Positions 51-19,576 of a DNA stretch of 44,897 bases are shown here, in pieces (positions within the stretch are counted from its first letter, which is position 1; the number at the start of each line of letters is the position of its first letter). Origin of the DNA: Candidatus Microgenomatus sp. (GTDB lineage: Bacteria; Patescibacteriota; Microgenomatia; UBA1400; PJMF01); NCBI GenBank assembly GCA_020724725.1, contig DYGL01000004.1, positions 1 through 44,897 on the forward strand. Direction: 5' to 3'. Below the pieces are notes generated by a model, which saw only the letters and a program-made list of their open reading frames with translations, was not told where the DNA came from and did no database searches. The position numbers and the translations under genes were made by a program.

Positions 51-1181
51 TTATCGTTCAATGGCTTCCCAAACTTGACATTCATTTTCAACACAAATTC
101 TGCCTTGCACAATATGTTGCCCAAAATTTTCCAAAGCGTAAATTTTGGAAAGATCTTTTTCTTCTCCTTGATTGCTGATATCCAACCAATTTTCTGATCC
201 TGGAATCAAAATTCTAAATTCATAGTTAAAGTTAACACTCTGGTTTCCACTTGCTGAACAGCGGAAGCGCACTTCATCGCCACTTTTTAACTTTTCATCA
301 TCATCTCCTGTCATAGGATTAAGATTAACATCCAACATTTCAATGCTTGCACAAACTGGCATGGCTTGGCTTTCACAACAATTGCTCACGTTTGGTTGAG
401 CAGCACAAAATAGTTGGTTTTCGCCTTTAGCACAGATTTTCTTAGCCACACCATCTTTATTGACTGGTTGACATGTCAATCCATTATCGCAATCAGCGTT
501 ACTATTACATCCAAACTCTCCGCAATTGAGTTTTTCTTCAAGTGGTGGTTCATCTGGAGGATCGTCATCAGGCGGACAATCTTCACACACAGCATTAGCT
601 TCCTCACATAAATCACCACAGCTATCGGCTGAGCCAATTACCCACCATCCATTGCCGGTTCCGCCACAACGACAGCGAATCAAGCCAACTTCGGAACAAG
701 TTTCTACGCGATCAGTATTAGGATTGTCGCACCAATCTCCGCCCATTGATTCGTTGGTGCAAGCATCTAAATCGGTTACATATCCACAAATAATTCCGCC
801 ATCTGCAGTATCTCTACAAGTCTCATGATAACATTTGTCTGGATCGCCATTGTTTAAGCGATGAGTGTTTGGGCCACAGTCGCCACCATCTGTTGAGTTG
901 GGTATACAATAATCAATTCCTCCAATGTTTTCTAAATGTGTGTCTGGATAGGCTCCACAACCTTCTGGAGGAGCTGGAATATAATTTGGCGCCGCTTGCT
1001 GGCGATTGTCTTGGTTTTGTTGTATTAAGATGTAGCTTGCAGAAATTCCTATTGCTAAAAATAACAAAATAAGTAATCCAGCAAGTCTACTTCTATTTTT
1101 TATTGGCTTGGCGAGTGAAATCTGTTTTTCTAAGCTGATTTTTTTATATTTGGCTGGTAAGTAGTCTCTTGGATCATTCAT
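51..1181 (-). CDS. Cys-rich membrane-anchored/secreted protein
   Basis: 376-aa ORF; basic N-terminus plus one hydrophobic segment (LAGLLILLFLAIGISASYILI), then many Cys residues and a Pro/Asp-rich linker; TATAAT upstream on minus strand. Confidence 0.7.
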   Translation of the reverse strand: MNDPRDYLPAKYKKISLEKQISLAKPIKNRSRLAGLLILLFLAIGISASYILIQQNQDNRQQAAPNYIPAPPEGCGAYPDTHLENIGGIDYCIPNSTDGGDCGPNTHRLNNGDPDKCYHETCRDTADGGIICGYVTDLDACTNESMGGDWCDNPNTDRVETCSEVGLIRCRCGGTGNGWWVIGSADSCGDLCEEANAVCEDCPPDDDPPDEPPLEEKLNCGEFGCNSNADCDNGLTCQPVNKDGVAKKICAKGENQLFCAAQPNVSNCCESQAMPVCASIEMLDVNLNPMTGDDDEKLKSGDEVRFRCSASGNQSVNFNYEFRILIPGSENWLDISNQGEEKDLSKIYALENFGQHIVQGRICVENECQVWEAIER

Positions 1182-1276: not shown

Positions 1277-2065
1277 GTGCAGAAAGACAACTTGCTTTAC
1301 TACCTTGATTTCGTTTGGCTTCTAACAAAAAAAGAAATCAAACTGCGTTATAAAAGAACTTTTTTGGGTTTGTTATGGGTGATCCTCAATCCTTTGTTAC
1401 AAATGTTAATTATTGGTTTGGTTTTTCAGTTTTTTGTGCCGATGAAAATTGAAAATTATTTTTTGTTTTTATTTGCCGGACTTTTGCCTTGGGGTTTTTT
1501 TGCTAATTCTTTGCTTCGAACCACGCCACTTTTGGTGCAGGAAAGAGCTTTGATGCAGAAAGCAGCTTTTCCAAGGGAGGTTTTGGTCGTAGCAGCGGTT
1601 TTGGCCAATTTGTTTCATACTTTGGTGGCGAGTGGAGTTTTTTTGTTTTTTCTGACTTTTTTGCAAGGTAATTTAATGGATGCTTTGTGGTTTTTTATCT
1701 CTAGACTGTTTTTATCAGCTTTCTTTTTTGGTTTTTTCTTATTATTTGTTTTGGCTACTTGTTTGATTGTCTCCGCTCTTTATGTCAGAGTGAGAGATTT
1801 AAATTTTGTAGTACAACTTAGCGTCCAACTGCTCTTTTATGGAGTGCCTATTGTTTATGGTTTGAGTATGTTGCCTGAGATTTTTAGGCAAATTCTTTAC
1901 TTTAACCCTTTAGTAAGTTTTATTGAGATTTTTCGCTATTTTTTCTTGGGTGGTGAATTTAATTTAACGTCTACTTCTGTAGTTGCTTTATTGTCTTTTC
2001 CTTATTTATTAGTGGCTTTACGAATTTTTAGAAAAGAAAGTAAAAATTTTGATGACTGGTTCTAA
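1277..2065 (+). CDS. ABC-2 type polysaccharide exporter permease (Wzm-like)
   Basis: 262 aa; N-term LTKKEIKLRYKRTFLGLLWVILNPLLQMLIIGLVF typical of Wzm/TagG permeases; adjacent to Wzt-like ATPase. GTG start. Confidence 0.9.
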   Translation: MQKDNLLYYLDFVWLLTKKEIKLRYKRTFLGLLWVILNPLLQMLIIGLVFQFFVPMKIENYFLFLFAGLLPWGFFANSLLRTTPLLVQERALMQKAAFPREVLVVAAVLANLFHTLVASGVFLFFLTFLQGNLMDALWFFISRLFLSAFFFGFFLLFVLATCLIVSALYVRVRDLNFVVQLSVQLLFYGVPIVYGLSMLPEIFRQILYFNPLVSFIEIFRYFFLGGEFNLTSTSVVALLSFPYLLVALRIFRKESKNFDDWF

Positions 2066-3086
2066 AACAGCTGTTTTATTAAAGAAAGTAAATAAACGCT
2101 ATTTTTTGCGCAACTCTTTTGATAATAAGCCTTTTTTGGCCCTGCAAAACATTAACTTAAAGATCAAGCAGGGCGAAAAAATTGCTATTTTGGGTGATAA
2201 TGGTGCTGGTAAGACTACTTTGCTAAAAATGATCGCCGGCATTGCCGAGCCAAGCACTGGTCAGGTGAAAACTAGTGGTAAGGTAGTTTCCTTGATTGAC
2301 ATTACCGCCGGTTTCCATCAAGAGTTTTCTGGTCGAGAAAATATTTATCTTAATGCTATTTTGCTTGGTCTCAGACCAAAAAATGTCAAAAATCTAGAGC
2401 AAGAAATTATTGATTTTGCTGGCTTGGGTGAGTTTATTGATCAGCCAATCTATACCTATTCTTCAGGCATGGTTTTGCGTCTTGGTTTTGCCGTGGCCAT
2501 TCACGCTCAGCCAGATGTTTTGATTCTAGATGAAGGGATTATTGTTGGCGATCAAGATTTCCAGAAGAAAGCTTACGATAGTGTCGAAGAAATTTTTGCG
2601 AAGGGTAAGACCATTGTTCTCTCTAGCCACATGTTGCCTCTGCTTAAAAGACTTTGTCAGCGTTTTGTTTGGTTGGAACATGGTCAAATTATGATGGATG
2701 GTGGGCAAGAGGTTTTACTTGAATACAAGAAACACCGCGCCAATTTGCAAATAGAGAATTTGCCGAGTAATAAAAATGCTTCTTTATTGTTTGATTTTCT
2801 AAAAAACTTGCCAATTGGTGAGAAATTTGTAGCGACCGCTAGTAGTGGGAGTATGGAGCCTTTAATTTTGAAGGGTGACGAGATTGAAGTGGAGCGAGTT
2901 GATTTTGCTAATCTCAAAAAAGGCGATGTGATTGCTTTTTGGAATGATGCCTTACAAAACGTAGTTGTTCATCGCTTTTATAAGTTGGAGCAGGGCAAGA
3001 TTGTGACTAAGGGTGATAATAACCTAGTGGCAGACGTGGGTTATGTTGAGAAGGAAAATTTCTTGGGTAAAGTCTCAGGCTTTTGA
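2049..3086 (+). CDS. Wzt-like ABC ATPase fused to a C-terminal S26 signal-peptidase-like domain
   Basis: Walker A GDNGAGKTT, signature YSSGMVLRLGFA, Walker B VLILDEG; C-terminal about 95 aa contains SSGSMEPLILKGDEIEV...GDVIAF...VVHRFY...TKGDNN..AD, matching S26 peptidase motifs with His rather than Lys as putative base. Confidence 0.88.
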   Translation: MMTGSKTAVLLKKVNKRYFLRNSFDNKPFLALQNINLKIKQGEKIAILGDNGAGKTTLLKMIAGIAEPSTGQVKTSGKVVSLIDITAGFHQEFSGRENIYLNAILLGLRPKNVKNLEQEIIDFAGLGEFIDQPIYTYSSGMVLRLGFAVAIHAQPDVLILDEGIIVGDQDFQKKAYDSVEEIFAKGKTIVLSSHMLPLLKRLCQRFVWLEHGQIMMDGGQEVLLEYKKHRANLQIENLPSNKNASLLFDFLKNLPIGEKFVATASSGSMEPLILKGDEIEVERVDFANLKKGDVIAFWNDALQNVVVHRFYKLEQGKIVTKGDNNLVADVGYVEKENFLGKVSGF

Positions 3087-3368
3087 TTGCTTTTCAACAA
3101 TTTTCTCTTTAAGTGCCTGCTTCAACCATTCTTTGAGGTCTTTTTCCAACTCTTCTTTGGAAACATCATATTCTTGATTGAGTTTCTTGAGTAGATTGTC
3201 AAAAGAAATTGGTTTGGCTAGATTTTCCCAGATAGAAAAAGCCACATCTTCGAGTTCGATGATGTGTTTTTTATCTTTAGTCAGAAGCAAAAAGTGGTCG
3301 TTTTTTTTTAAAAAAACAACACCAACACTTCTAGAGAAAAGAAGACCATTTAAAACATCCATAATCAT
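3075..3368 (-). CDS. PqqD-family protein (RRE-like peptide-binding domain)
   Basis: 97 aa; HIIELEDVAFSIWENLAKPISFDNLLKKLNQEYDVSKEELEKDLKEWLKQALKEKIV matches the PqqD-fold pattern (LN..a..iW.lldg..t..ei...l...ydv....v..dv..fl..L...gli). Confidence 0.8.
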   Translation of the reverse strand: MIMDVLNGLLFSRSVGVVFLKKNDHFLLLTKDKKHIIELEDVAFSIWENLAKPISFDNLLKKLNQEYDVSKEELEKDLKEWLKQALKEKIVEKQSKA

Positions 3369-3392
3369 TAAGATTTTAGGATTTTTTAAGTA

Positions 3393-3467
3393 TTATATTG
3401 CTTCAGCAACAGCCAAACTGATTTTAATTTTGGCTTTTTTTAGCACTGGTTTGTTGTATTTTTTCAT
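3393..3467 (-). CDS. Candidate RiPP precursor peptide, 24 aa (MKKYNKPVLKKAKIKISLAVAEAI)
   Basis: Read by hand on minus strand; absent from ORF track because of length. GAGAAGGA-like ribosome-binding sequence just upstream, near-consensus promoter about 60 bp upstream, YxxPxL motif, 24 bp before the PqqD-like gene. Confidence 0.55.
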   Translation of the reverse strand: MKKYNKPVLKKAKIKISLAVAEAI

Positions 3468-3506
3468 ATTTCCTTCTCTGTTTTAAGAATTTTTATTTGA
3501 TTGAGC

Positions 3507-3535
3507 TTCACACTTTCTATCTGATCCAGTATAGT
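3507..3535 (+). promoter_or_regulatory. Candidate sigma70-type promoter for the QueC-like gene
   Basis: TTCACA - 17 bp - TATAGT. Confidence 0.4.
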
Positions 3536-3557
3536 AGCTCATTAGAATAATTGTCAA
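3528..3557 (-). promoter_or_regulatory. Candidate sigma70-type promoter for precursor peptide/PqqD-like genes
   Basis: Minus strand TTGACA - 18 bp - TATACT. Confidence 0.6.
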
Positions 3558-3583
3558 CATCATTTATTTTTAATAAATGTTTT

Positions 3584-4561
3584 ATGAAAAAAAATAAAGA
3601 TTTTGTTTCGAGGAGTTTTTTTAATAATTTTTTAAAAAACAGAGAAACTGAAGACTTAAATTTAATAGAGAATTTAGATAAGCTTTTTTTAAAAAAAAGA
3701 GGCTACGTTATTGAAAAACCAAAAGAATCGTCCAATGTGATTCTTTTACTTTCTGGAGGTTTAGATTCAATAGTCGCATGGGCTTTTCTAATGGAAGTTC
3801 GCAAGTACACTGTTTATCCAGTTTTTGTTAAAAGTAAAAAATTTAATTTATTTTCTCCAGAGTTTAGATCTATTCGTTATTTTTCTAAATATTTTTCTAA
3901 AAAATATGGGAAAAAATATGTAAAGCCTTTTTATTTAACTGTTTCTACACAACCAAAAGAGAAATCAATGTTTATAGGAAAAGAAAATTTAAGTGGAGTA
4001 GATATTTTAAATAATTTTCAATTAAACAACCATTTCTTGGAAAATGGTTCAAACATTGTGATATTTGAACCTCAAAACGTAGATCCTTATATCAAATCTT
4101 TTTATGGCTTGATTTACGCTCAATATTTAAATTTTCGCCACGGATTAGACGTAAAAGATATTTTTGTTGGAATCAACGCCTCTGACGGTTTGTTGGCAAG
4201 CAGTCAGTCTCTAACTTCAATAAGAAGCACAATGCTTTCAATGTGTATTTCTACTAACAAATATGATTGGAGTTTTTCTTCTCCATTCTTTGAAAGAGAG
4301 TTGGGTTCTATTATGGATAAGAGTAGTGTTATAAGAATAGGTCATGGTTTAGGTTTGCCACTTGAAAAAACTTGGTCTTGTTATAAAAAAAATAATATTC
4401 TGCAATGTGGAAATGATTGCATAAGTTGTGTTAATAGGAGACATTCTTTTGAGGAAGCAAAAGTTAAAGACGAAACCTTTTATAGTTTTTCTATTAAAAA
4501 AAGACTATTTGTTGCTCTCAATTTCAGATTAAAAAAACTTTTGAAATTATTAAGCATTTGA
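3584..4561 (+). CDS. QueC-like PP-loop ATPase
   Basis: PP-loop VILLLSGGLDSIVAWAF; C-terminal zinc-site pattern TWSCYKKNNILQCGNDCISCVNRRHSF as in QueC. ORF track starts at 3551 (TTG); ATG at 3584 more likely. Confidence 0.8.
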   Translation: MKKNKDFVSRSFFNNFLKNRETEDLNLIENLDKLFLKKRGYVIEKPKESSNVILLLSGGLDSIVAWAFLMEVRKYTVYPVFVKSKKFNLFSPEFRSIRYFSKYFSKKYGKKYVKPFYLTVSTQPKEKSMFIGKENLSGVDILNNFQLNNHFLENGSNIVIFEPQNVDPYIKSFYGLIYAQYLNFRHGLDVKDIFVGINASDGLLASSQSLTSIRSTMLSMCISTNKYDWSFSSPFFERELGSIMDKSSVIRIGHGLGLPLEKTWSCYKKNNILQCGNDCISCVNRRHSFEEAKVKDETFYSFSIKKRLFVALNFRLKKLLKLLSI

Positions 4562-4564
4562 ATA

Positions 4565-5314
4565 TTATCTTTTCTGCAAAATACCTAAACCAGAGTTTTT
4601 TGGAAAGGGGAAAGTGATTTTTTCTTGTATCCTTAATTCTTGCCAAAACTTCTTGACTCCATAATCCCCGCCGGTGAGTTGACCGGAAGCAACGATATCA
4701 TGAAAGCTCATGATCCCTCCTTTTTCCAACCTAGGATAGAAAAGCTTGTAGTCTAATTTGACTCCTTTGTAAGAATGGTCACCATCAATGTAAATATATT
4801 GATATTTTTTGCTTTGATATTTTTTGGCGAATTCTAAAGTCGTCATTAAGTGAGTGATGATGTGTTTATCAACTCCAACTTGAGCAAAATGATCCTTTGG
4901 ATTGATTTTTTTCCAAAAACCAATGCCTTGCCAATTTTGGCCATCATCGGTCTCATCGTAAGCAGCATCTACGAAATCTACTTTTCCAAAACCAATGTCT
5001 CGACAGGCACTAGCAATCATCATTGGCACATAACCTTTGAGTGAACCAACCACTAAAATATTTTTAGGTTTTAAATTCTGTACAAGAGCATAGTGAAGTA
5101 AGCCAAAGCCTAAGCTAGCGTTTTTTGAATCAACATTTTGTCCCTGATTGCCGTCGTATTTATCAATAAGAAATTTGGCAACATCTTTTTTAATTAGGCT
5201 GCTTTTGAGTTCTTTTTCTAAGCAATTTTTTTTATATGAATAGTAGATCTTTCTCAAACCAAACCATTTCACCAAATCAAGAAAATTTAGAATATTTTTA
5301 CGGTTAATTAACAT
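4565..5314 (-). CDS. Class I SAM-dependent methyltransferase (Methyltransf_24-like)
   Basis: NILVVGSLKGYVPMMIASACRD, YIYIDGDHSYKGVKLDYKLFYPRLEKGGIMSFHDI. Confidence 0.7.
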   Translation of the reverse strand: MLINRKNILNFLDLVKWFGLRKIYYSYKKNCLEKELKSSLIKKDVAKFLIDKYDGNQGQNVDSKNASLGFGLLHYALVQNLKPKNILVVGSLKGYVPMMIASACRDIGFGKVDFVDAAYDETDDGQNWQGIGFWKKINPKDHFAQVGVDKHIITHLMTTLEFAKKYQSKKYQYIYIDGDHSYKGVKLDYKLFYPRLEKGGIMSFHDIVASGQLTGGDYGVKKFWQELRIQEKITFPFPKNSGLGILQKR

Positions 5315-5373: not shown

Positions 5374-5958
5374 GTGAAAAACGAAAGTGCTGTTTTGTTA
5401 GCCAAATTGAATATGCTGGGTGAAGACAACTACTTGAGCGATTTTTCTAGAGTAAATTATTTTTTCAAACAATTTGATGAGTTTTTGGTAAGTTTATTGC
5501 CCAATCGGCCAGCTACTCTCAGGCCAGCGCATTATGCTCGTCTTTTACCAAAGTCAGCTTGGCCTAATTATGAAAAGTTGTTTATCAAGCATGGCTACTC
5601 GGTTAGCAATCGTTTCCCTAGCACCATTGTTCAAGCTTACTTTGGTAAAAAATATCCTAGAGAATCGATTTCAATTGAGATTGTTAAGATTTCTGGAGTA
5701 GACAAACAAGAAATAGAGCTTTTAGTGGTAGATTCAAAACTTGATCGAGAAATAGTTGAGCAAGAAAATCTGAATCTGAGGCATTTTGCTCTTACCTTAG
5801 AAGAAAAGGATTTTGCTGATTTTGTTAATGTTCTTTTGCAAGCGGGTTTCAAAAAAGTTTTTTCTGGTAATAATCAATATGAGCAATCCAGCACCACTTA
5901 TTTTCAAAAGAATTTTGACAACAACTCTCTGAGATTGGAAATTTTTAAAAAGGTTTAA
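5374..5958 (+). CDS. Uncharacterised protein, possibly VOC-like
   Basis: 194 aa, GTG start; first gene of the co-directional operon; LRHFALTLEEKDFADFVNVLLQAGFKKVF...LRLEIFKK weakly resembles a VOC half-domain. Confidence 0.5.
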   Translation: MKNESAVLLAKLNMLGEDNYLSDFSRVNYFFKQFDEFLVSLLPNRPATLRPAHYARLLPKSAWPNYEKLFIKHGYSVSNRFPSTIVQAYFGKKYPRESISIEIVKISGVDKQEIELLVVDSKLDREIVEQENLNLRHFALTLEEKDFADFVNVLLQAGFKKVFSGNNQYEQSSTTYFQKNFDNNSLRLEIFKKV

Positions 5959-5959
5959 T

Positions 5960-7297
5960 GTGCAAAAAACAAATCAAGCAAATCTTTCTCAAGTGCAAAG
6001 CTCAGCTTTAAAATCTGCGCAAAATTGTGTGGCTTACGCCAAGCATTTAAAATCAAATAATCTTGATTCAAAAAAGACAGTTTTCGAAAACTTGCCTCTT
6101 TGTGACAAAGATAACTACACGGCAAAATATTCCATAGAAGAGAGAATTGATAAAAATAAATGTCTGGCTGATTTTTACATGATTTGCACTAGTTCTGGTT
6201 CAACCGCTGAACCAACCATTTGGCCTAGGGATTATGAATACGACCGTGGTTTGGAGCCACCTCACACCAAATTTTTAAACGAACATTTTTCTTTTAGTCA
6301 AAAGAAAACTTTGGTTGTAATTGCTTTTGGCTTAGGCACCACTCAGGCAGGCATGATGCACCTCAAATCTTCTTGGGAAGGAAGTTTGCATGGGCAAATT
6401 AGTGTCATTGCTCCAAATGGTGATGCAGAACAAACTGTTTTTTTATTGAATAAGCTTCATCCTCACTATGAACAAATTATTGTAATTGGTTATCCGCCAA
6501 TTATTAGTGATTTTATTGATTTGGCAGAGGAGAAAAAGCTTGACCCGCAAAAATGGAATTTGAAAATAGTTTTTGCTGGTGAAAGTGTCAGTCCTCTTTG
6601 GCGCAAAACAATGGCAAAAAAAATTGGTGGTAGTCAGCGCGACATCGTGTCTTTTTATGGTAGTACTGAGGCAGGCATGATTGGTTTTGAGTCGAAAGAG
6701 ATAAATCAATTGATTGCTCGTTGTTTGGATGATGAAGATTTGCGTTTTGATCTTTTTAAAACCTTTAATTTGCCAACTTTGGTGGAAGTTAATTTTGACA
6801 AAAAATATGTAGAAATAGTTGATGGCGAAATTGTGGTAACTGCCGATCAAGCAGTTCCTTTAGTTAGATATAATTTGCACGATCGAGGTTTTATTTTAGA
6901 CTCAAAAACAATTCAACAAGTTTTAAATCAACATAAAATTGGTTATAAATATCCAAAGAATCAAGGTTTTTTGGTGATTTATGGCCGTAATTTATCTAGG
7001 CAAATTTCTATTGAGGACGTGCAAAATGCCTTGGCTATTCTAAATTTTGCCAAATATTTTCATAAAGAATTTCAATATCAAGAAAAAACCAGCAAAGGGA
7101 GCATCATTTTGTCCTTGAATTTATATGCCAAAAATGACGAAAGCATTGCTGGAGAAAAAATTAAGTCTTTAGAAGTTGCCATGGCGAAAACAATTTCTAG
7201 ATTAATAATGTCAGCCCATCCGGTCAAAGTGAAAATTAAAGTTTTACCTGAAGCTCAAAGATTGGGTTATAAGTCTGGCAAACTCAGATATCTTTAA
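5960..7297 (+). CDS. PaaK-like adenylate-forming enzyme (phenylacetate-CoA ligase/CoF synthetase family)
   Basis: ICTSSGSTAEPTIWPRDYEYDRG and SFYGSTEAGMIGFES motifs; GTG start. Confidence 0.82.
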   Translation: MQKTNQANLSQVQSSALKSAQNCVAYAKHLKSNNLDSKKTVFENLPLCDKDNYTAKYSIEERIDKNKCLADFYMICTSSGSTAEPTIWPRDYEYDRGLEPPHTKFLNEHFSFSQKKTLVVIAFGLGTTQAGMMHLKSSWEGSLHGQISVIAPNGDAEQTVFLLNKLHPHYEQIIVIGYPPIISDFIDLAEEKKLDPQKWNLKIVFAGESVSPLWRKTMAKKIGGSQRDIVSFYGSTEAGMIGFESKEINQLIARCLDDEDLRFDLFKTFNLPTLVEVNFDKKYVEIVDGEIVVTADQAVPLVRYNLHDRGFILDSKTIQQVLNQHKIGYKYPKNQGFLVIYGRNLSRQISIEDVQNALAILNFAKYFHKEFQYQEKTSKGSIILSLNLYAKNDESIAGEKIKSLEVAMAKTISRLIMSAHPVKVKIKVLPEAQRLGYKSGKLRYL

Positions 7298-7321
7298 CTA
7301 GTCTTGTGGTTTTTTAAATTT

Positions 7322-8419
7322 ATGCAGCAATTTTTAATCAATCAGCAAATTACAAAACTTCATTGTGATTTAGGTTCTTTTGTAAAGTTATCAGAAACTT
7401 TTGATTTTAAAGTTTATTCAAATATTGCTTTATTAAGCAACAGGTCTTTAACCAAAATTTATCAATCTGAAATTGAAAGTTTTTTTGCTCAAGCTGGTTT
7501 TGCTTTGCAAATTATTGAGCTTGAAGATGGAGAACAATTTAAAGATTTGAAGCAAGTACAAAAAGTTTGGAAGGAGTTATTTAATTTGAAATTTGATCGT
7601 CACTCTTTACTAATTAATTTTGGCGGCGGCATGATTTCTGATCTCGGCGGTTTTGCCGCCGCCACCTTCATGCGTGGCATTGACTTTATCAATGTGCCAA
7701 CCAGTCTCTTAGCTCAAGTTGATGCGGCTCTGGGTGGGAAAACGGCTATTAATTTTGGCCAAATTAAGAATGGTATTGGTTTGTTTGTTAATCCAAAATT
7801 GACGGTTATTGATCCAACTTTTACCAAATCTTTGCCAGAAAGAGAAATTTTATCTGGTTTTGCGGAAGTTTTAAAACATGCCATTATTTTTGACTCAAAA
7901 CTTTTTTCTTTGTTGGACAGTAAGCCCTTTTTATCCTTTTCCTTGGAAGAGTTGGTAAAAATTATTGATCGCTCTTGTTTTTTGAAAATGAAAACTGCTG
8001 AGCAAGATTTCCTAGAGAAAAACCAGCGCAAGCTTTTAAATTTCGGTCACACCTTGGGCCATGCTTTTGAAGCGATTTCATTAAAATCTAAAAAGCCTCT
8101 TGCTCATGGGGAGGCGGTGGCACTGGGCATGCTTTTGGAAAGTCGTTTGGCAGTGACGATTGGTTTGCTAGCTAAAGCAGATTATTTGCAAATTGAGCAA
8201 ATAATTAATCGCAATTATGTTTTTGACTTGGATGGAGAAATTAAAGTTGCTGATGTTTTAGCCTTGCTTCAATTTGATAAAAAGAAAAAAGCCAATGAAA
8301 TTTATTGGTCGCTACCTCAGGCAGTTGGTCGGGCAGTCTATGATCAACTAATCCCTGAGTCGGAAGTTGAATCTGTTGTCAATGAATTTATGTTGGGAAA
8401 TTCAAAAAATGTTATCTAA
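7322..8419 (+). CDS. aroB: 3-dehydroquinate synthase or related sugar-phosphate cyclase
   Basis: FGGGMISDLGGFAAATFMRGIDFINVPTSLLAQVDAALGGKTAIN; LLNFGHTLGHAFE; HGEAVALGM. Track starts at 7304 (GTG). Confidence 0.92.
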   Translation: MQQFLINQQITKLHCDLGSFVKLSETFDFKVYSNIALLSNRSLTKIYQSEIESFFAQAGFALQIIELEDGEQFKDLKQVQKVWKELFNLKFDRHSLLINFGGGMISDLGGFAAATFMRGIDFINVPTSLLAQVDAALGGKTAINFGQIKNGIGLFVNPKLTVIDPTFTKSLPEREILSGFAEVLKHAIIFDSKLFSLLDSKPFLSFSLEELVKIIDRSCFLKMKTAEQDFLEKNQRKLLNFGHTLGHAFEAISLKSKKPLAHGEAVALGMLLESRLAVTIGLLAKADYLQIEQIINRNYVFDLDGEIKVADVLALLQFDKKKKANEIYWSLPQAVGRAVYDQLIPESEVESVVNEFMLGNSKNVI

Positions 8420-9068
8420 ACTGCCAATCTGCACCATCTTGGCTGAAACAGATTTGGCAAAAACAAGAGCACTGGTAGCTAAAGTAGAAAAAGACTCTAC
8501 TTTTTTTGAATTGAGAGCTGATTTTCTAAGCAATTTAAATGAAGAATTGATTTATTCTCTTAAAAAGATTCTCAAATTACCGACAATTTTTACACTAAGA
8601 GACATAGAAAATGGCGGTCAATTTGCTGGTTCTAATGCAGAAAAACTGAATTTTTATAGGCAAGCCGCTGATGCTTCTTATGAATACTTAGATCTTGAAT
8701 TAGATTCACCTTTAATTGATGTCTTCGACAGGAAAAAGTCGAAATTGCTTCTTAGTTACCATAATTTTTCAAAGACACCTAGTCTTGCTCAACTGCGCTC
8801 AATCATCGCTACAGCCCAAGCTAAAAATCCAGACCTGATTAAGATTGCTACCTTTGTTAATCAAACAACTGATTTACAAGTTTTGGCAAAATTACTACTA
8901 GATCACCAAGTTTCAAAGCAACTAATTGTGGTTGGGATGGGTGAGTTGGGCAAGCCATCGAGAGCCTTTTTTCCTTATTTGGGGTCTTTTTTGACTTATG
9001 CTGTTTTCAATAATAAGATAGCGTCAGGTCAACTTTCTTTGTTGGAAATGCAAAAGTATGTCTTCTAA
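8409..9068 (+). CDS. aroD: Type I 3-dehydroquinate dehydratase
   Basis: FFELRADFL, LPTIFTLRDIENGGQF, LLSYHNF (catalytic His), DLIKIATFVN (Schiff-base Lys). Track starts at 8367. Confidence 0.88.
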   Translation: MLSKLPICTILAETDLAKTRALVAKVEKDSTFFELRADFLSNLNEELIYSLKKILKLPTIFTLRDIENGGQFAGSNAEKLNFYRQAADASYEYLDLELDSPLIDVFDRKKSKLLLSYHNFSKTPSLAQLRSIIATAQAKNPDLIKIATFVNQTTDLQVLAKLLLDHQVSKQLIVVGMGELGKPSRAFFPYLGSFLTYAVFNNKIASGQLSLLEMQKYVF

Positions 9069-9786
9069 ATCTTGGATTTTCATTGCTGGTCCCTGCGCAG
9101 CCGAAAGTCGAGAGCAAATTCTCGCTTCCGCTAAATCTTTGAGTGAAATTGGTGTGCCTATTCTACGAGCTGGGGTCTGGAAGCCAAGAACTAACTCCAA
9201 CGATTGGCAAGGAGCTGGAGACGTGGCTCTAGAGTGGTTGAGAGAAGCCAAGAAAGCTACTGGCATTTTAACGGCAACTGAAGTTAGAGATCGAAGAACT
9301 CTGGATTTGGCGATAAAGAATGGCGTCGACTATTTGTGGATAGGCTCTCGAAATGCGCAAAACTTTGCACTTTTAGAGGAGGTTGGTCAAGCGACATCTC
9401 AAAGCAAGGCTCCAGTGATTTTGAAGCGCTCAATGTCATCTTCACTTCAAGAATGGCTAGGTAGTGCTGGATATATAGCCAAATATAATTCAAATATTAT
9501 TCTTTGCGAGCGAGGCATTCGCGGTTATTCTCCAGATACCAGAAATATTCTCGATCTACAAACCGCTTATTTGGCCAAGCTAGAATCTCCCTATCGAGTC
9601 ATAGTTGATGTTAGTCATGCGGCTGGTCGCACTGACTTGATTTATCCAATGTCTCTGGCTGTCAAAGCAGCTGGCTTTGATGGTTTGATGATTGAAGCTC
9701 ATCCTGATCCAAAACAGGCAAGAACTGATAGTTTTCAACAAGTAGACTTTAAAGAACTTAAAAAAATTTTCCATGCAGTTAAATAA
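9058..9786 (+). CDS. 3-deoxy-7-phosphoheptulonate synthase (DAHP synthase, type I-beta-like)
   Basis: FIAGPCAAES, LRAGVWKPRTN, GSRNAQNFALLEEVG, ILCERGIRGY..TRNILDL, VIVDVSHAAGR, GLMIEAHPDP. Confidence 0.9.
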   Translation: MSSKSWIFIAGPCAAESREQILASAKSLSEIGVPILRAGVWKPRTNSNDWQGAGDVALEWLREAKKATGILTATEVRDRRTLDLAIKNGVDYLWIGSRNAQNFALLEEVGQATSQSKAPVILKRSMSSSLQEWLGSAGYIAKYNSNIILCERGIRGYSPDTRNILDLQTAYLAKLESPYRVIVDVSHAAGRTDLIYPMSLAVKAAGFDGLMIEAHPDPKQARTDSFQQVDFKELKKIFHAVK

Positions 9787-11053
9787 ACTACAAAATATTA
9801 TTGACAAGGCTTGGAAAACACCAGCTTTCAGAGATTTTTATACAAAGAATAAGGCTCCTCGACAGATTGGTTCTAAAAGAGATTTAGCAAAATTTCCTTT
9901 GTTCAGCAAAGAGCTTTATCATAAGCTAATTAAACAAAAACCTTTGAAACTTGGCGATAATGTTTATATTTTAAAAACTTTGGTTGATTTGGAAGGTCAT
10001 GAAACAATTTTTCCCTTATCGGCAAGTGATTATCAAAATTACATTGCCTTGGAAAAACGTAAGTTTGAGTTGCTTGGTGTAAAAAAAACTGATCTTTGCA
10101 GTGTGGTGGCTTTTTCTCAAAATCATACTTTGCCTTTGACACAATCTTTCTTGGCTCTTGGAGCGTCTTATATCCCTCTGGATGGAGATGAAGAAAAGAT
10201 TTTTCGCAACCTAATAGAACAAAAAGTAACAGTGCTTTTTACTATTCCACCTGTGGTTTACCGTCTTTTAGATTACGTCAAATCTAGGCAACTTAAAACT
10301 TCTTTGCGCCTAATCGTCACTACTGGGGTGAAAATTCCTGATGTGGCAGAGTTAAGCAAAGAAACAGAGAAAATTTTGGGTGCCAAATTGCTGGATACCA
10401 TTGGTGCAACTGAGTTGGCTTCTTTTGCTTTTTCTTGTCCAGAGCACCCCAATTTTTATCATTTTGTTGATCAGCAACAAATAGTCGAAATTCTAGATCC
10501 ACAGACCAAAAAAGCTAGCAAAAGTGGTGAAATTGTGATCACTCCACTTTGGAAAGAGGATTTTGCGCTTCTTCGCTATGCGACGGGTGATTTTACTAAA
10601 ATTAATGAAGAGCTAACTTGTGGTTGTCGTTTGCAAAATAAACTTTTAGTTAGTGGCGTAGAAAAAAGATTATCTCAAACAACCAGAATACAGCGTTATT
10701 TAGTTAATTTTGATGATTTTTATTACAAAATTAAAGATAGTTTGCTATGGCAATATTTTTTTGATTCTAAGTTATGGTATTTTTTTGAGAAGCCAAAGTT
10801 ATTTGTTTTGCTAAGCAAAGTTAATCATGCAGATCGTGTTTTGGTTTTTATTGAAAAGCAAAAATTTTATTTAACCTTGAGAAAAAGGCAAAAAATTGAA
10901 GAGGTTATTTTTCAAATGACTAATGCTGACGTACAAATTGTGCTTTGTGATAAAAAAATAATCCAAAAAGTTAAGATTAATCATCAAGATATTAGAGATT
11001 TAAAGCAAAAGAATCTCTCTAAGGAAGTTTTGGCGCTTTTAAAACTATGCTAA
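9773..11053 (+). CDS. Second PaaK-like adenylate-forming enzyme
   Basis: Divergent PaaK-type protein: LLDTIGATELASFAFSCPEH, GEIVITPLWKEDFALLRYATGDFTKI. Confidence 0.78.
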   Translation: MQLNKLQNIIDKAWKTPAFRDFYTKNKAPRQIGSKRDLAKFPLFSKELYHKLIKQKPLKLGDNVYILKTLVDLEGHETIFPLSASDYQNYIALEKRKFELLGVKKTDLCSVVAFSQNHTLPLTQSFLALGASYIPLDGDEEKIFRNLIEQKVTVLFTIPPVVYRLLDYVKSRQLKTSLRLIVTTGVKIPDVAELSKETEKILGAKLLDTIGATELASFAFSCPEHPNFYHFVDQQQIVEILDPQTKKASKSGEIVITPLWKEDFALLRYATGDFTKINEELTCGCRLQNKLLVSGVEKRLSQTTRIQRYLVNFDDFYYKIKDSLLWQYFFDSKLWYFFEKPKLFVLLSKVNHADRVLVFIEKQKFYLTLRKRQKIEEVIFQMTNADVQIVLCDKKIIQKVKINHQDIRDLKQKNLSKEVLALLKLC

Positions 11054-13991: not shown

Positions 13992-15080
13992 AATTAATTG
14001 AATTTTATTTTCCCAACTATTTTTTTTAGCCAACTCTTTTTGTTTTTTGGAATTTATTTGTGATTTGTTTTTGAGTAGTTTTTGTAACTGTTTTTGCCAT
14101 TCTTCCAATTTATTACTAACGAAGATCAGATTTTTAAATTCTGGATTTTTCAACTCTTCAATTTCTGTGCTTAAAACTGCTTTGCCGAAATAAAAATACT
14201 CAAAAACCTTCATTGGGTAACAATATTTGTTAAAATTAACTTGAGTGTTGTAGGGAATGATTGTCACATCAAATTGCTTGATTATTCCGTACAATTCATA
14301 TCTATTGTTGCTCTCACCCATTAAAACATTTTCATATTTGCTGATTTTACGTAGCCACCCTGTAGTTTTGAATTGTGGGTCTTTTTTTTGATCTTTTTGG
14401 ATGGGTCCATAAAAAACAAATTGCCACTGTGGGTTATTTTTAATCAGCTGGTCAAGCAAGGGAAAATCTAAACGATAGTTGAGTCCGCCAACAAAGCCAA
14501 TCACTGGCTTATCAAATGATAGTCGGCTTTTTTTAATTAGTTTTTCATTGGGTTCAAAGAAGCCTTGAGCTGAAAGGAAGATGGGTTTTTTGCTTTGTTT
14601 CTGATGGAGTTTGGCTAAAACTTTCGAATTGACGAAAAAATAATCAATATTTTCAATGAGTTGTTTTTCTTTTTCACTATCTTCTTGGTAATCAATACAG
14701 TCGTAAATTTTCAAGCCGTTTTTAACTTTAACTTCGGCTAAATCATGATAATTGGGGTAGAAAAACCACAAAATTTTATCTTTTAAACCAAATTTAGCCA
14801 AAAATAGAAGCCAACTAAGTTTGCGATTGAATTGTTCCAAGCCCAGTAATTTTCTGCCTGGCAAGAAGTATTTGGCTTGGTGAAAATGTAAATTTTTACT
14901 AGATGGGTATGTGACTTGTGCTTTTTTTTTGAGAAAAAAGTAACTATTAATCTGATCGTAAATATAGACTTGATTGTATTTGGCTAAGGTCAGGGCAGTT
15001 TGACGCAAGAAGTCAGCGCTATGAGCAAAATCACCTTCTATAGGTATGATAATGACTTTATTCTTGATCATTTTGTGCAA
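13968..15080 (-). CDS. Glycosyltransferase family 1/4-like
   Basis: KPVIGFVGGLNYRLDFPLLDQLIKNNPQWQFVFYGP, NVLMGESNNRYELYGIIKQFDVTIIPY, YPMKVFEYFYFGKAVLST. Confidence 0.82.
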   Translation of the reverse strand: MHKMIKNKVIIIPIEGDFAHSADFLRQTALTLAKYNQVYIYDQINSYFFLKKKAQVTYPSSKNLHFHQAKYFLPGRKLLGLEQFNRKLSWLLFLAKFGLKDKILWFFYPNYHDLAEVKVKNGLKIYDCIDYQEDSEKEKQLIENIDYFFVNSKVLAKLHQKQSKKPIFLSAQGFFEPNEKLIKKSRLSFDKPVIGFVGGLNYRLDFPLLDQLIKNNPQWQFVFYGPIQKDQKKDPQFKTTGWLRKISKYENVLMGESNNRYELYGIIKQFDVTIIPYNTQVNFNKYCYPMKVFEYFYFGKAVLSTEIEELKNPEFKNLIFVSNKLEEWQKQLQKLLKNKSQINSKKQKELAKKNSWENKIQLISKLIFSE

Positions 15081-18000
15081 AGTATTTAATTCTTAAGGCT
15101 AAATCTAATTTAAAATCTGGCACAGTAATTTTTTGTTGACCCCGCTCAATTATTTCTTTCCCAATAACTAGTCCGCTAGCTGGATCATACCACTCTAATT
15201 CTCCTGCTAGAGCTAGGTCTAATTCTAAATAGGCTTGTTCGTTTCTTTTTGGGTCAATTTTGAGCAAATAAGCCAAAAACCAATCTTGATTGTTCATGGT
15301 ATAGACTTGAACTTGCTCTTTTGAAAGAGTGAATGAATCATATTTGATAGGCAGGAGTAATTCTTTTGGCAAAAAATCTTGTAAAGCTTTGAGATGGGCT
15401 CTTTCACTTGGGCCAAGGTAAACATTAGCATTGTCTTTATTTTCATAAATGCCATTTTGACCATTGGTCCAAAAAATCAGCCCCATATTTTGCATCACGC
15501 TTAGCCAAGACATGAGACGCATTTGTGTGCTTGCTCCCTCAAACCAACTTCGATCTTTGAAGCCAATTTCACTAACAAGCATAGCCTGCTTTTGAGCTTG
15601 GTATTTTTTGACTAAGTAGTTGATGTCGACAGATGTTAACTCTGGGTTTTGACGAATCGGGTTGTACCAGTGCACAGATAGAAAGTCTAAGTTTTTAGCT
15701 TGACTACTTTCCCAGTTAGTGCTTATTGGTAATTGATAAGGATCATTTTCCTTGAGGTAATTGATAACAAAATCATACCAAGCCTGACTTGGCTCGGCTT
15801 CGTTGGCAATTTCCCACAAATCGACCATTGGGCCGAATCTAGCAATCACATAATCCAAGTAAGTAGCCACTGCCTTTTGATTGTCTTGATTATTGATCTC
15901 AAAAGTAGATCTGAAAGGAGGGTAGAAACCAAAAATAGTCATTATAACTTTGAGATTGCGATCTTTTAGTTCTGTTAAAAGTTGATCGCCAAATAAACCA
16001 CCACTCGTACTTAGATTGAAGTTCGCCAAATCTAGCGAATTCCAAAGTGGCGGTGTCCAATTTTCCACTCCATATCTAAAAATATTTATCGAAGCTTCTT
16101 TTTGATAAACGTCTAGATATTCGCTAAGCGATAAATAAGCATAATTTGCTTGGCTTAAGCTTGGTTCTGGTAAATTTGAGGCTGGCATTTCATCAAAATA
16201 CTGACCATTGTAATTGCGATCGAAAAAAGCATCTTGAATGCCAAGGGGTAGGAAGGCTTGTTTGCCATTGATGGTAAACTGATTTCCCTTGATGCTGATT
16301 TTTTCTTTTCGATAAGTTTTAATTTCTACCTCACCTTTAATGGTTTTTCTTAAATAAGGACTTTTAATTTTGATTTGATATTGATAAAGTCCTGGTTCAT
16401 CTGGTAAAAATCTAATTTTCCAAGTGTTGTGGTCAAAATAAAAAGCTTTGACAATTTGTTTTTGTCCGTCTTTGCTAAATTCAGCGAAAATTTCTAAATC
16501 TAAAAATTTATTTTGATAAAGTTGCTCATCATGACCAATATTAATTTCTAGGAAATTTGCTTTTGTTTCTGCTTTCACCTCAAATCGCCAGATTCTTTTA
16601 ATATTTTGGCTTAGATACTTAATTTGAGTGATTTTTTCCTTCAATTTGCTTGACCATGTTTCAATTTGTTTGAACTCCACATAAGGATCTTTATTGTCTT
16701 TATTAAAAATTAGCTCAAAATTCTTATTCACAATTTCTTTACTTTTGATTTCTTGGTCGCTAATCGTAATTTTTTCTAACAAATTTTTATCTGTGTTTAA
16801 AATAAAAATGTTATTTTTATCATGGTAAACTTCTTGAGCATCAATCAGTAAATCTGGGACGTATTGCCAGAGCAGTCGACCATTTTGATCAAAATAACTA
16901 AGCTCAACTTTAAAGCCAGCTTTTTCACTAATAACTAATAGATTTTTTTGGATTTCTAAGAGTCGTAAAACTTTCCCGTCTAGCTGTTGTTGCCAATTGA
17001 TTTGACCATCATTTTCAAAACTTGTAATTTGGCCAGTGTCGCTACCAGTGATCAATTGATTTTCTAAATTAACCTGTTGACTGATGGCTCCAGAAACAAT
17101 TTTTGACCAAGTAATCTGGCCAGTCTCATAATCAATGAAAAGTAGTAGGTCACTGTTTTCTGCCAGCAAGTGTTTTTGTGCCAAAAATTGTTTTTGTTTT
17201 AGTTCAATAATTGGTTCTGATAGTTTAAACTGTTGGTAAATTGGTCTGTCAATTTGAGGAATTTCCCAAGTGATTTTTTGAAAATCCAAACTTATTTTTT
17301 TCAACTTTTGCTCATGAAGAATCAGTAGATTTTGTTCTTCACCATTCACTTTAAAAGCCATCAATGGCCAATTATTTTGTTTATTAATTTTGGTGTAATT
17401 GCCAGTTTCTCGATCAATACTAAGCAGGGCATTTTTCTGAGTTAAAATGATTCTTTGTGGATAAAAAAGAGGTGGGTGAAAACTAAAATCAAGATCGCTA
17501 ATTGCCCATTTTTCTTGACCAGTTTGAGCATCAAGACTAACGAATTTTTTTTCAATAGCTTGCCAAACGTAAAGATCGTTTTGATCTAAATATAAATTGC
17601 CAAAGTGAATGGTGTTTGGAACAAAAGCTTGTTTAGTGTCAATTGTTTTAAATTGTTTTGACCAAACTAAATTTCCCTGATTTTTATAAAGAGCGTAGAG
17701 TGTGCCAGTTCTTGAACCAAAAAAAAGCAGATCATTTTCTTTGGCAGTTACGATTGGTGTATCAGGTAGAGAATTGTCTCTGACGCTAAATTGCCAAAGT
17801 TGTTGACCGTTTTGTTTATCTAGACTGTAAACTTTTCCATCAAAATTGGCTAGAAAAATTTTTTCATTTTCGATCAAAGCTGAAAAAGGACTATATTTAT
17901 CTGCTTGAAATTGCCAGTTTTTCTCGCCTGATTTTTGTTTCAAAGAGATAGTCTTTCCATCTTGGACATTGAAGTAAAGATTCTCTTGATCAAAACTTAG

Positions 18001-18153
18001 GTTTTGGTAGAGAGCTAATTTGTTATTGGCGCCAATGTTTTTCTGAGTATAGAATTGCCAGTTTTTTTCTGTTTGTCTGAAAGAAAAAAATAGCAAAGAC
18101 AGCGCAATAAAAGCCAGAAATAAGTAAAACTTTTTAAGTTTCATAATTGGCAA
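15058..18153 (-). CDS. PQQ-like beta-propeller fused to DUF5060-like domain and TIM-barrel glycoside hydrolase
   Basis: N-terminal hydrophobic segment; repeated GxxxW motifs (LDKQNGQQLWQF, LDAQTGQEKWAI, IDYETGQITWSK); DUF5060-like region; NEAEP and VSEIG candidate acid/base and nucleophile. Confidence 0.8.
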   Translation of the reverse strand: MPIMKLKKFYLFLAFIALSLLFFSFRQTEKNWQFYTQKNIGANNKLALYQNLSFDQENLYFNVQDGKTISLKQKSGEKNWQFQADKYSPFSALIENEKIFLANFDGKVYSLDKQNGQQLWQFSVRDNSLPDTPIVTAKENDLLFFGSRTGTLYALYKNQGNLVWSKQFKTIDTKQAFVPNTIHFGNLYLDQNDLYVWQAIEKKFVSLDAQTGQEKWAISDLDFSFHPPLFYPQRIILTQKNALLSIDRETGNYTKINKQNNWPLMAFKVNGEEQNLLILHEQKLKKISLDFQKITWEIPQIDRPIYQQFKLSEPIIELKQKQFLAQKHLLAENSDLLLFIDYETGQITWSKIVSGAISQQVNLENQLITGSDTGQITSFENDGQINWQQQLDGKVLRLLEIQKNLLVISEKAGFKVELSYFDQNGRLLWQYVPDLLIDAQEVYHDKNNIFILNTDKNLLEKITISDQEIKSKEIVNKNFELIFNKDNKDPYVEFKQIETWSSKLKEKITQIKYLSQNIKRIWRFEVKAETKANFLEINIGHDEQLYQNKFLDLEIFAEFSKDGQKQIVKAFYFDHNTWKIRFLPDEPGLYQYQIKIKSPYLRKTIKGEVEIKTYRKEKISIKGNQFTINGKQAFLPLGIQDAFFDRNYNGQYFDEMPASNLPEPSLSQANYAYLSLSEYLDVYQKEASINIFRYGVENWTPPLWNSLDLANFNLSTSGGLFGDQLLTELKDRNLKVIMTIFGFYPPFRSTFEINNQDNQKAVATYLDYVIARFGPMVDLWEIANEAEPSQAWYDFVINYLKENDPYQLPISTNWESSQAKNLDFLSVHWYNPIRQNPELTSVDINYLVKKYQAQKQAMLVSEIGFKDRSWFEGASTQMRLMSWLSVMQNMGLIFWTNGQNGIYENKDNANVYLGPSERAHLKALQDFLPKELLLPIKYDSFTLSKEQVQVYTMNNQDWFLAYLLKIDPKRNEQAYLELDLALAGELEWYDPASGLVIGKEIIERGQQKITVPDFKLDLALRIKYFAQNDQE

Positions 18154-19576
18154 TTCCTAGGTATAAAAAGAAAAAAGCAGTTAGTTCATAATGGTTGGTA
18201 AAAACTGGATGAAATTGGGCAGCCAAAAAATAAGCAAGAGCAGCTATACCAAAAATTTGATTTTGACCATTCCAGCCATTTTTAATCGTTTGATAAACAA
18301 AAAATACAAAAACTAAGGTTGCTAAAACACCAGTTTCAGCCAAGAGTTGAACTAAAATATTATGAGCTGGAGCTTGATCAAAAATCACTACTGGACTATC
18401 AACAGTTTTAAAATTCTTGGCTAAATAGTAGGGTGTTAGATCCAAACCAATTCCTAGATAATTTTTGAAAGACATGGATAAAACGTGCTGATTGAGCTCT
18501 TGGCGATAGGAAAGACTACCATCTCGACTCAAAACATTTTGTAAACTGCTGGTTCTAATTAAAACATATGGTAGAGCTAGTAAAACCACGATAGCCAAAG
18601 ATATTTGAAAAATCTTTTTTTGAAATAGTTGCTGTGCTATTTGCCAAATAATTTTTTTGTATTTCAAAAAATAAAAAATCAAGCTCACGCCAGTTAAGAA
18701 ATAGAGACTACGACTACCAGTAAAAATGATGCCAACGAGTGCTAAAAAAGCTAGACTTAGGATTAAGTAGGCATTTTTTTTATTTTGTTTAAATTTTTCT
18801 AAACTCAGGCTAAATAAAATCATAAAATTCATCAATAAAAAAATAGCGGTAATATTTGGTTCATTAAAAATGCCGTCAGCTCTCAGCAAGTCTGCTGCTT
18901 CTGAAGATCTAGTCCCGAATTCAATTCCTGGCAACCTGTTTTCAATAAAACGACCTAAGTTTCCACCTTTCCACTGCTCATATAAAACCATGCTGGTGTG
19001 AAAAAAAGTCATTGATGCTAATGTGCTTAGTAAAATTTCAAAATACTTTTTATTTTTTAAATCAATTAGGTGAGGTAAGGAGAAAACTAAAATAAATTTG
19101 AGGATGATCACTGAACCAGCCAAAAGTAAGCTAGAAAATTCATGACCAGGGTTTCTTAAAAGAATGAGTAAAAAAAATACTAATAAGCTAAGTAGTGAAA
19201 TTTTATTTGTCAGGCTTAATTTATTTTTATCTGTTTTGTTTGTTTTTTTATCAAAAAATTTCTTGGAAAAATAATTTTGATAGATTAAAACTAAAAATAA
19301 ATCAGATAAATAAATTGGCAAAAAGTATTTAACGTCGTAAATGGCAAAACTAAAAATTTCATCCCGCTTGATAAGAGTGGTGTCAATTAAGTTGCGACCA
19401 ATGGTAAAAGGTAGTAAGTTAACAAATAGTAAAAACAAGCTCAATCTATAATTTTGTGTTTTACCAATGAGTATGATTAAATACACCAAGCTTATAAGGA
19501 GAAGAGTTTTATTGGAGTTGACCAGCAGTAAACTAAAAAGAAAAGCAGAATTCAACACAAAAAAAACAACGGTCAT
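18134..19576 (-). CDS. O-antigen ligase/Wzy-like polytopic membrane protein
   Basis: Multiple TM segments; ADGIFNEPNITAIFL, GSRSLYFLTG, GIGLDLTPYYL, APAHNILVQLLAETGVLATL. Confidence 0.82.
   Translation of the reverse strand: MTVVFFVLNSAFLFSLLLVNSNKTLLLISLVYLIILIGKTQNYRLSLFLLFVNLLPFTIGRNLIDTTLIKRDEIFSFAIYDVKYFLPIYLSDLFLVLIYQNYFSKKFFDKKTNKTDKNKLSLTNKISLLSLLVFFLLILLRNPGHEFSSLLLAGSVIILKFILVFSLPHLIDLKNKKYFEILLSTLASMTFFHTSMVLYEQWKGGNLGRFIENRLPGIEFGTRSSEAADLLRADGIFNEPNITAIFLLMNFMILFSLSLEKFKQNKKNAYLILSLAFLALVGIIFTGSRSLYFLTGVSLIFYFLKYKKIIWQIAQQLFQKKIFQISLAIVVLLALPYVLIRTSSLQNVLSRDGSLSYRQELNQHVLSMSFKNYLGIGLDLTPYYLAKNFKTVDSPVVIFDQAPAHNILVQLLAETGVLATLVFVFFVYQTIKNGWNGQNQIFGIAALAYFLAAQFHPVFTNHYELTAFFFLYLGIANYET

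Follow-up and report, generated by a model that had tools for sequence, protein, structure and literature searches.

A putative RiPP biosynthesis-and-export cassette with a QueC-like enzyme in a Candidatus Microgenomatus contig and related Patescibacteria

Contig DYGL01000004.1 of Candidatus Microgenomatus sp. (assembly GCA_020724725.1; 0.72 Mb, 84% complete), whose 44.9 kb form the window analysed here, carries at positions 1277-4561 a cassette of ~3.3 kb that probably encodes the biosynthesis and export of a ribosomally synthesized and post-translationally modified peptide (RiPP), with a QueC-like enzyme as its tailoring enzyme. In its chassis the pathway is most likely related to LPP (lppAKBSDN; PMC13381572) and to lasso peptides, with a QueC-family protein as modifier. 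A preliminary description of this DNA had proposed a RiPP-type cassette of precursor, PqqD-type RiPP recognition element (RRE), QueC-like ATP-dependent enzyme, and exporter coupled to an S26 peptidase. All five genes, including a short open reading frame (ORF), were recovered at their coordinates and with the named domains by an ORF check and by Pfam and NCBIfam scans of the window proteins; this part of the proposal was supported, and the arrangement was found to be kept across relatives. Read at the level of sequence, the evidence consists of this gene set, its conservation in reordered loci, fusions of QueC with PqqD, and a conserved precursor, together with predicted ATP, zinc, and peptidase residues that are intact, the loss of deazaguanine-binding motifs, and the absence of QueD and true QueC. 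The genes concerned are as follows (E, E-value; aa, amino acids):

1277-2065, plus strand: ABC-2 type (Wzm-like) permease, the exporter membrane subunit (ABC2_membrane, PF01061, E 3.6e-13)
2049-3086, plus strand: exporter ABC ATPase with C-terminal S26 domain (PF00005, E 1.6e-22; likely start ATG 2052)
2817-3083, plus strand: S26 domain of the ATPase (Peptidase_S24, E 1.8e-5; TIGR02228, 74.2 bits vs. a cutoff of 51.85)
3075-3368, minus strand: PqqD-like RRE, 97 aa (PF05402, E 3.1e-11)
3393-3467, minus strand: putative precursor peptide gene, 24 aa, MKKYNKPVLKKAKIKISLAVAEAI, with Y4xxP7xL9 (leave-one-out profile, ribosome-binding site, conservation)
3551-4561, plus strand: QueC-like PP-loop enzyme (PF06508, E 5.1e-13; more likely start ATG 3584)
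4565-5314, minus strand: Methyltransf_24-type methyltransferase (PF13578, E 1.8e-15)

The 24-aa ORF adjoins the PqqD-like gene and is preceded by a good ribosome-binding site (AGAAGGAAAT-ATG), and several of the other precursors also had a clear one. A related YxxP ORF of 21-34 aa was present at 10/10 loci examined that hold both PqqD and a QueC-like gene. Besides the window peptide (with genomes and loci denoted by G and L numbers, respectively), these were MKKQLKKYVKPELKKNKVKINFAFAASK (G001), MKKQAKKYSKPELKKSKIKINFAFAVAK (G005), MQKYKKPQLRIIDLKAILVVAE (G003), MKKKSYNKPSVKKVALVAVAFAEPI (G002), MKYIVPQDIRVEILAVLVQED (G017), MKKPSKEYIKPNDKKVKIRIVLPFVASSHDPFEI (L031), MKTPKRIYKKPADKKIKLRAVLIIPEAV (L035), MKKKSQVKVVKYQKPSDTRSKITVMLVET (L144), and MSTKKQKKKYKKPQDLRVKINALLFLEGE (L151). 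Conservation of the PqqD-like gene without such an ORF, which the preliminary description had put forward as an outcome speaking against a RiPP system, was thus not encountered at these loci. By itself, a YxxP motif in one locus is weak evidence and not significant: its chance occurrence in a short ORF was ~15-30% per segment at 9/10 loci and 75% in one long segment. The short ORFs were scored with a leave-one-out profile from which the tested locus was excluded and, for the window, the close relatives G001 and G005 as well. The window ORF ranked first among 351 short ORFs (E 9.3e-7; runner-up 0.5), and at each of the ten loci the held-out ORF came out on top of the 31 to 351 short ORFs scored there (E 7e-12 to ~1e-3), on which grounds a chance ORF was rejected. 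At eight QueC-like loci lacking PqqD, the same profile returned no significant precursor candidate (best E 0.18 or worse). Alignment of the ten precursors showed only the Y, the P, and a basic stretch to be conserved. Of the YxxPxL motif originally noticed in the window ORF, YxxP therefore held throughout, whereas the Leu is replaced by Asp in several relatives.

The pairing of the two flanking genes was similarly persistent. Searches of 55 relatives, first with the QueC-like protein and afterwards with the PqqD-like one, recovered both genes in G000, G001, G002, G003, G005, and G017, always near each other, and further paired loci came from named-genome and class-wide searches, namely L031, L035 (= G150), L144 (G256), and L151 (G293). 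The named-genome scan relied on two short peptide patterns, by which divergent relatives would be missed; close named relatives among the Patescibacteria (CPR) were Candidatus Pacebacteria UBA6188 (L030), Candidatus Paceibacterota UBA9650 (L034), and CP011212.1 (L032), which is the same locus as G003 and belongs to the window's genus. A search for PqqD-like genes next to QueC-like genes, suggested at the outset, thus yielded ten loci, with a short YxxP ORF at each. Proximity was maintained despite differing gene order and orientation. In the window, PqqD and precursor are directed away from QueC; G003 has ATPase-S26, PqqD, and QueC, followed by the precursor on the opposite strand; in G002, QueC is followed by the precursor, PqqD, and an S26 gene of its own, and in G017 the order is precursor, QueC, PqqD, permease, ATPase-S26. 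Class-wide, 19 of 373 genomes matched the QueC-like protein strongly (E up to 1e-25) and 43 had a PqqD match. Both occurred in 12, i.e., in 12/19 QueC-like genomes vs. ~2 expected (Fisher p 3.4e-8, a statistic that ignores relatedness). The best NCBIfam match of the window's PqqD-like protein was the lasso B1-type PqqD NF033536, below its cutoff.

The QueC-like proteins retain the parts of the fold expected to handle ATP and zinc, and have lost those that define the canonical substrate. An SGGxD[S/T] loop (SGGLDS in the window) and a C-terminal Cys zinc site were kept in 22/22 family members. The motifs YxQxHxxE, VPxRN, and YPDC, which were near-invariant in 61 canonical QueC sequences and include residues required for queuosine in E. 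coli (PMC13329287), were lost as motifs in 22/22, with the Glu of YxQxHxxE often kept. Against the NCBIfam model of true QueC, the window protein scored 28.4 bits (cutoff 150.3). Its predicted structure (pLDDT 75, pTM 0.77) had QueC (Z 15.5), Cap9 (Z 14.3), and QatC (Z 13.6) as nearest folds, and the best profile match among solved structures was Cap9 (E 2.3e-9). QueD (PF01242) exceeded its cutoff in 0/14 genomes, with 9/14 controls positive, and true QueC likewise in 0/14, including G003, which is complete in a single contig. Because the binding motifs are lost and both proteins are absent, a deazaguanine reaction is unlikely unless the base is taken up. An assignment as the QueC of a queuosine pathway was rejected on the same evidence; a QueC-like gene sitting in a complete queuosine pathway, which had been named beforehand as a counter-case, was not seen in the 14 genomes.

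In a tree, the QueC-like proteins fell into three groups, all apart from canonical QueC (support 100/100). The window clade comprises nine PqqD-linked proteins (98/97), and a second clade of five rows (99/98) holds fusions. A member of the latter, G352, has a precursor-like ORF; the stretch read around it contains no PqqD, for which the G352 match is on a different contig. The third clade lacks PqqD and a nearby precursor (L024 (G007), L025 (G010), L138-L141, L143, L147), and many of its members lie in glycan loci; the G007 gene stands beside a GT5-type glycosyltransferase, with a like-looking gene in L036. This clade points to yet another role of the QueC fold.

QueC and PqqD were joined in one ORF in L142 (426 aa), L145 (403 aa), and L146 (446 aa). 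Both domains of the L142 protein were over the Pfam cutoff. The L145 and L146 proteins gave a weak Pfam match or none for PqqD, which was identified there mainly with a profile built in this analysis. PqqD was also found fused to a radical SAM enzyme in L162 and L163, an established RiPP layout. Since the PqqD-radical SAM-SPASM fusion of L162 adjoins a precursor of the same kind (MKKYQKPKATKVKTNVLFSCCGSRSSSV; profile E 2.2e-6), the QueC-like protein appears to occupy the position of a tailoring enzyme. No radical SAM protein had been visible to the first description; in the sister clade, radical SAM genes do lie near the clusters L145, L146, and L148. Sister-clade clusters possibly have two YxxP peptides each, with weak profile support; the candidate pairs are 9178-9267 and 7459-7653 in L142, 6924-7025 and 5383-5529 in L146, and 7699-7839 and 10832-10927 in L148, and one peptide of each pair ends in a C-terminal Tyr (KVKVWTMSY, IKSKIWTDY, NTPILNSY).

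The S26 domain, which in the window is part of the exporter ATPase, passed the TIGR02228 (archaeal-type signal peptidase I) threshold there and also in G002, L035, and L144. Alignment across loci predicted Ser268 (codon 2850-2852), His308 (2970-2972), and Asp329 (3033-3035) as catalytic residues. In the homologue LppS, the leader peptidase for YxxP precursors in LPP, Ser29, His68, and Asp93 are essential and the leader is cut only with the RRE present (PMC13381572), an experimental precedent consistent with the earlier suggestion that the S26 domain acts as leader protease. S26 and ATPase form one protein in G000, G001, G003, G005, G017, and L151; the peptidase is encoded separately in G002, L035, and L144, and split over two frames in L031. 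Overall, most PqqD loci have S26 either within the exporter ATPase or adjacent to it, whereas 7/8 QueC loci without PqqD lack it; the ATPases of G007, G010, and G013 had no S26 domain. Permease equivalents stand beside the cassette in G002, G003, G005, G017, L031, L144, and L151.

Where the leader would be cut can be estimated from known systems. The published LPP consensus places the LppS cut 12 residues past the Pro of YxxP (PMC13381572), and lasso leaders, with Tyr at -17 and Pro at -14, are cut 13 residues past it (PMC10368454). Applying both registers to each precursor gave predicted cores of VAEAI/AEAI (window), FAASK/AASK (G001), VAE/AE (G003), AEPI/EPI (G002), QED/ED (G017), IPEAV/PEAV (L035), ET/T (L144), and LEGE/EGE (L151), with a core of about ten residues in L031 as the exception. 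With a cut ~12-13 residues past Pro, the peptides would end soon after the leader, and the released core would usually measure ~2-5 residues. A signal-peptidase AxA site fits five window-clade peptides (V-V-A in G003); as a general rule it was rejected, being missing in L035, L144, L151, and G017.

In the pathway that we propose, the PqqD-type RRE would bind the YxxP leader of the 24-aa precursor, as the LPP and lasso precedents suggest, and present the short C-terminal tail both to the QueC-like PP-loop enzyme and to the S26 domain. The QueC-like enzyme would most likely adenylate a core carboxylate with ATP, either the C-terminal one or that of a Glu near the C-terminus. Because this Glu is absent in G001 and G005, the C-terminal carboxylate would be the simpler common target. 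Attack of ammonia or an amine on the activated carboxylate could then give an amide, a nitrile, or a lactam. At the exporter, the S26 domain would subsequently remove the leader ~12-13 residues past Pro, again by analogy with LPP and lasso leaders, and the Wzm/Wzt-type transporter would export a very small product. The order of these steps is provisional, as is any role assigned to the product. Chemistry of this kind has parallels: QueC converts a carboxylate to an amide and on to a nitrile, and the nitrile synthetase PesC converts a peptide C-terminus to a nitrile (PMC13060819). PesC resembles the proposed enzyme in that it uses ATP to activate a peptide carboxylate within a RiPP pathway, but belongs to another PP-loop family, groups with asparagine synthetases, and has a fold nearer ArtA than QueC (PMC13060819). 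As to the broader claim, we consider the chances evenly balanced that these loci constitute a new, QueC-defined RiPP class, Patescibacteria-wide and with QueC-RRE fusions in a sister branch, that activates a carboxylate of the C-terminal tail and releases a modified peptide of ~2-5 residues via an exporter ATPase with its own signal-peptidase-type leader peptidase.

The closest known relative of the chassis is LPP, which shares the discrete PqqD-type RRE, the YxxP leader, an archaeal-type signal-peptidase-like leader peptidase with Ser/His/Asp, an ABC exporter, and location in capsule loci (PMC13381572). As LPP already joins these parts in capsule loci, the chassis is not without precedent, and the initial judgement that no known RiPP class is involved needs adjusting in this respect. 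LPP differs in having an HprK kinase and an NTP transferase, precursors of 35-200 aa, a mostly Bacillota distribution, an MsbA-like exporter, and a separate peptidase, whereas the present loci, in Patescibacteria, combine a QueC-like enzyme and precursors of 21-34 aa with a Wzm/Wzt exporter whose ATPase carries the peptidase. In the alignment, the LPP leader YxxPxVLxHQxIxFET was absent from the precursors, which had only YxxP and a roughly similar spacing in common with it. The scanned window proteins included no HprK-like kinase or NTP transferase; genes of one or the other kind (HprK-like judged by sequence inspection) were found in QueC-less relatives and in the sister clade.

Resemblance to the lasso system (A, B1, B2, C, D) raises the possibility that the QueC-like enzyme is a macrolactam synthetase closing a lasso-like or simple cyclic peptide onto a Glu/Asp near the C-terminus. 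The logic is indeed that of lasso loci, with a YxxPxL-type leader, a discrete B1-like PqqD, an ATP-dependent PP-loop enzyme, a leader peptidase, and an exporter (PMC10368454), and Glu/Asp occurs 13-15 residues past the leader Pro in 7/10 precursors. However, an RRE-type cut would usually leave 2-5 residues, too short for a lasso ring, and G001 and G005 have no acidic core residue. Lasso precursors carry Thr (or Ile) at leader -2 (PMC10368454) and a core that can form a ring of 7-9 residues plus tail; the window precursor does not fit this pattern, as it contains no Thr and its leader Pro is followed by just 17 residues. The scan of window proteins (1277-21642) showed no asparagine-synthetase-like cyclase (C), the PP-loop enzyme matching QueC, and no transglutaminase-like B2 peptidase, an S26 domain being present instead. 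We consider a macrolactam synthetase unlikely. The similarity to Cap9 of type IV CBASS suggests another reading, in which the enzyme would couple 7-carboxy-7-deazaguanine, or a different small acid, to a peptide amine. Cap9 acts in an ATP-dependent manner on the N-terminus of its partner protein, and QatC of the Qat system has been proposed to do likewise (PMC12424860); QueC-family enzymes acting on protein tails are therefore known, and Cap9 and QatC share the PF06508 fold, P-loop, and zinc site with the window protein, of which Cap9 was the best match among solved structures. This reading is very improbable, since the deazaguanine-binding motifs of canonical QueC, which Cap9 largely keeps (PMC13329287), are lost here, the genomes encode neither QueD nor true QueC, and no CBASS or Qat partners were found among the window proteins; a different acid as substrate is still conceivable. 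Pairing or fusion with an RRE and a short precursor further sets the cassette apart. A Qat or CBASS defence locus was likewise rejected: a PADLOC scan of seven window proteins gave only weak QueC/QatC and generic ATPase matches and no partner defence genes.

It is also conceivable that the peptide system is real and LPP-like, and that the QueC-like enzyme is a mere neighbour from the polysaccharide locus that modifies a surface glycan or activated sugar. Beyond the cassette, the window encodes glycosyltransferases, an O-antigen ligase, and sugar-related proteins, and the PqqD-less clade of the family occurs in glycan loci, as in G007 and L036. We nevertheless judge this quite unlikely given the QueC-PqqD fusions, the proximity in ten rearranged loci, the class-wide co-occurrence, and the separate, supported clade of PqqD-linked proteins; without QueC, moreover, the window clade would have no visible modifying enzyme. 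Several points do weigh against the proposed pathway. Because the PqqD-less clade sits in glycan loci, the QueC-like reaction need not be peptide-specific, and adjacent genes in surface-polysaccharide regions, to which these loci belong, may have nothing to do with one another. In addition to ignoring relatedness, the co-occurrence test used profiles, that of PqqD among them, built from some of the same loci. The structure model of the QueC-PqqD fusion (three sequences; pLDDT 49) was too poor for geometry. With no core residue invariant and the Glu near the C-terminus missing from two precursors, the modified residue cannot be named.

A QueC-family enzyme in a RiPP pathway, a QueC-RRE fusion, an S26-Wzt fusion, and such pathways in Patescibacteria were not found described, although an earlier report elsewhere is possible. 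Literature naming both PqqD and QueC contained, by title and abstract, none on a RiPP pairing, and a paper search on signal peptidases in RiPP exporters gave no hits; the main text of a 2026 QueC-family survey makes no mention of PqqD or RiPPs, and that of a 2025 RRE survey none of QueC. If the tailoring role is correct, a family known for cofactors and tRNA bases, and recently found modifying proteins in phage defence, would enter ribosomal peptide chemistry. The Patescibacteria, rich in episymbionts, would gain a family of tiny secreted peptides that might serve in signalling with host cells or act on them. Among peptide-processing exporters, the S26-ATPase fusion would constitute a second design. 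In C39 peptidase-containing ABC transporters, an N-terminal cysteine leader peptidase is fused to the cytosolic part of the exporter; here, an S26 serine peptidase stands at the C-terminus of a Wzt-like ATPase.

PqqD clusters without QueC were also observed (L158, L159, L160, L162, L164), with short YxxP peptides and mostly with S26, which suggests a wider RiPP family in Patescibacteria. L159 combines PqqD, S26, and a YxxP peptide with a PIG-L family protein, a like-looking gene of which is present in L160, and L164 has a Cys-rich precursor candidate of 67 aa.

Downstream of the cassette, the Methyltransf_24-type gene has counterparts as neighbours in G005 (E 1.2e-16) and, by sequence resemblance, in G003 and G017; since it was also found in loci without PqqD, it probably belongs to the surrounding surface locus. 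The segment 5374-13991 contains a truncated shikimate pathway of 3-dehydroquinate synthase (7304-8419), type I dehydroquinase (8367-9068), and DAHP synthase (9058-9786), together with two PaaK-like AMP ligases (5960-7297 and 9773-11053), an uncharacterised 194-aa protein (5374-5958), a Gfo/Idh oxidoreductase, and a DegT aminotransferase. It possibly encodes a pathway whose end product is an acid derived from dehydroshikimate and used in a surface compound; genes of similar appearance stand beside the cassette in G005 (L020), not in G003. Upstream, 51-1181 (minus strand) encodes a Cys-rich protein without a Pfam match, which has a single probable membrane anchor and whose conserved N-terminus resembles N[DNP]PRD[YF][LI]PAKYK; equivalents occur in L020-L022, L024, and L026, and stand beside the exporter in many loci. 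Further along, a 1031-aa protein (15058-18153, minus strand) with PQQ-type beta-propeller repeats and a DUF5060 stretch adjoins the O-antigen ligase at 18134-19576.

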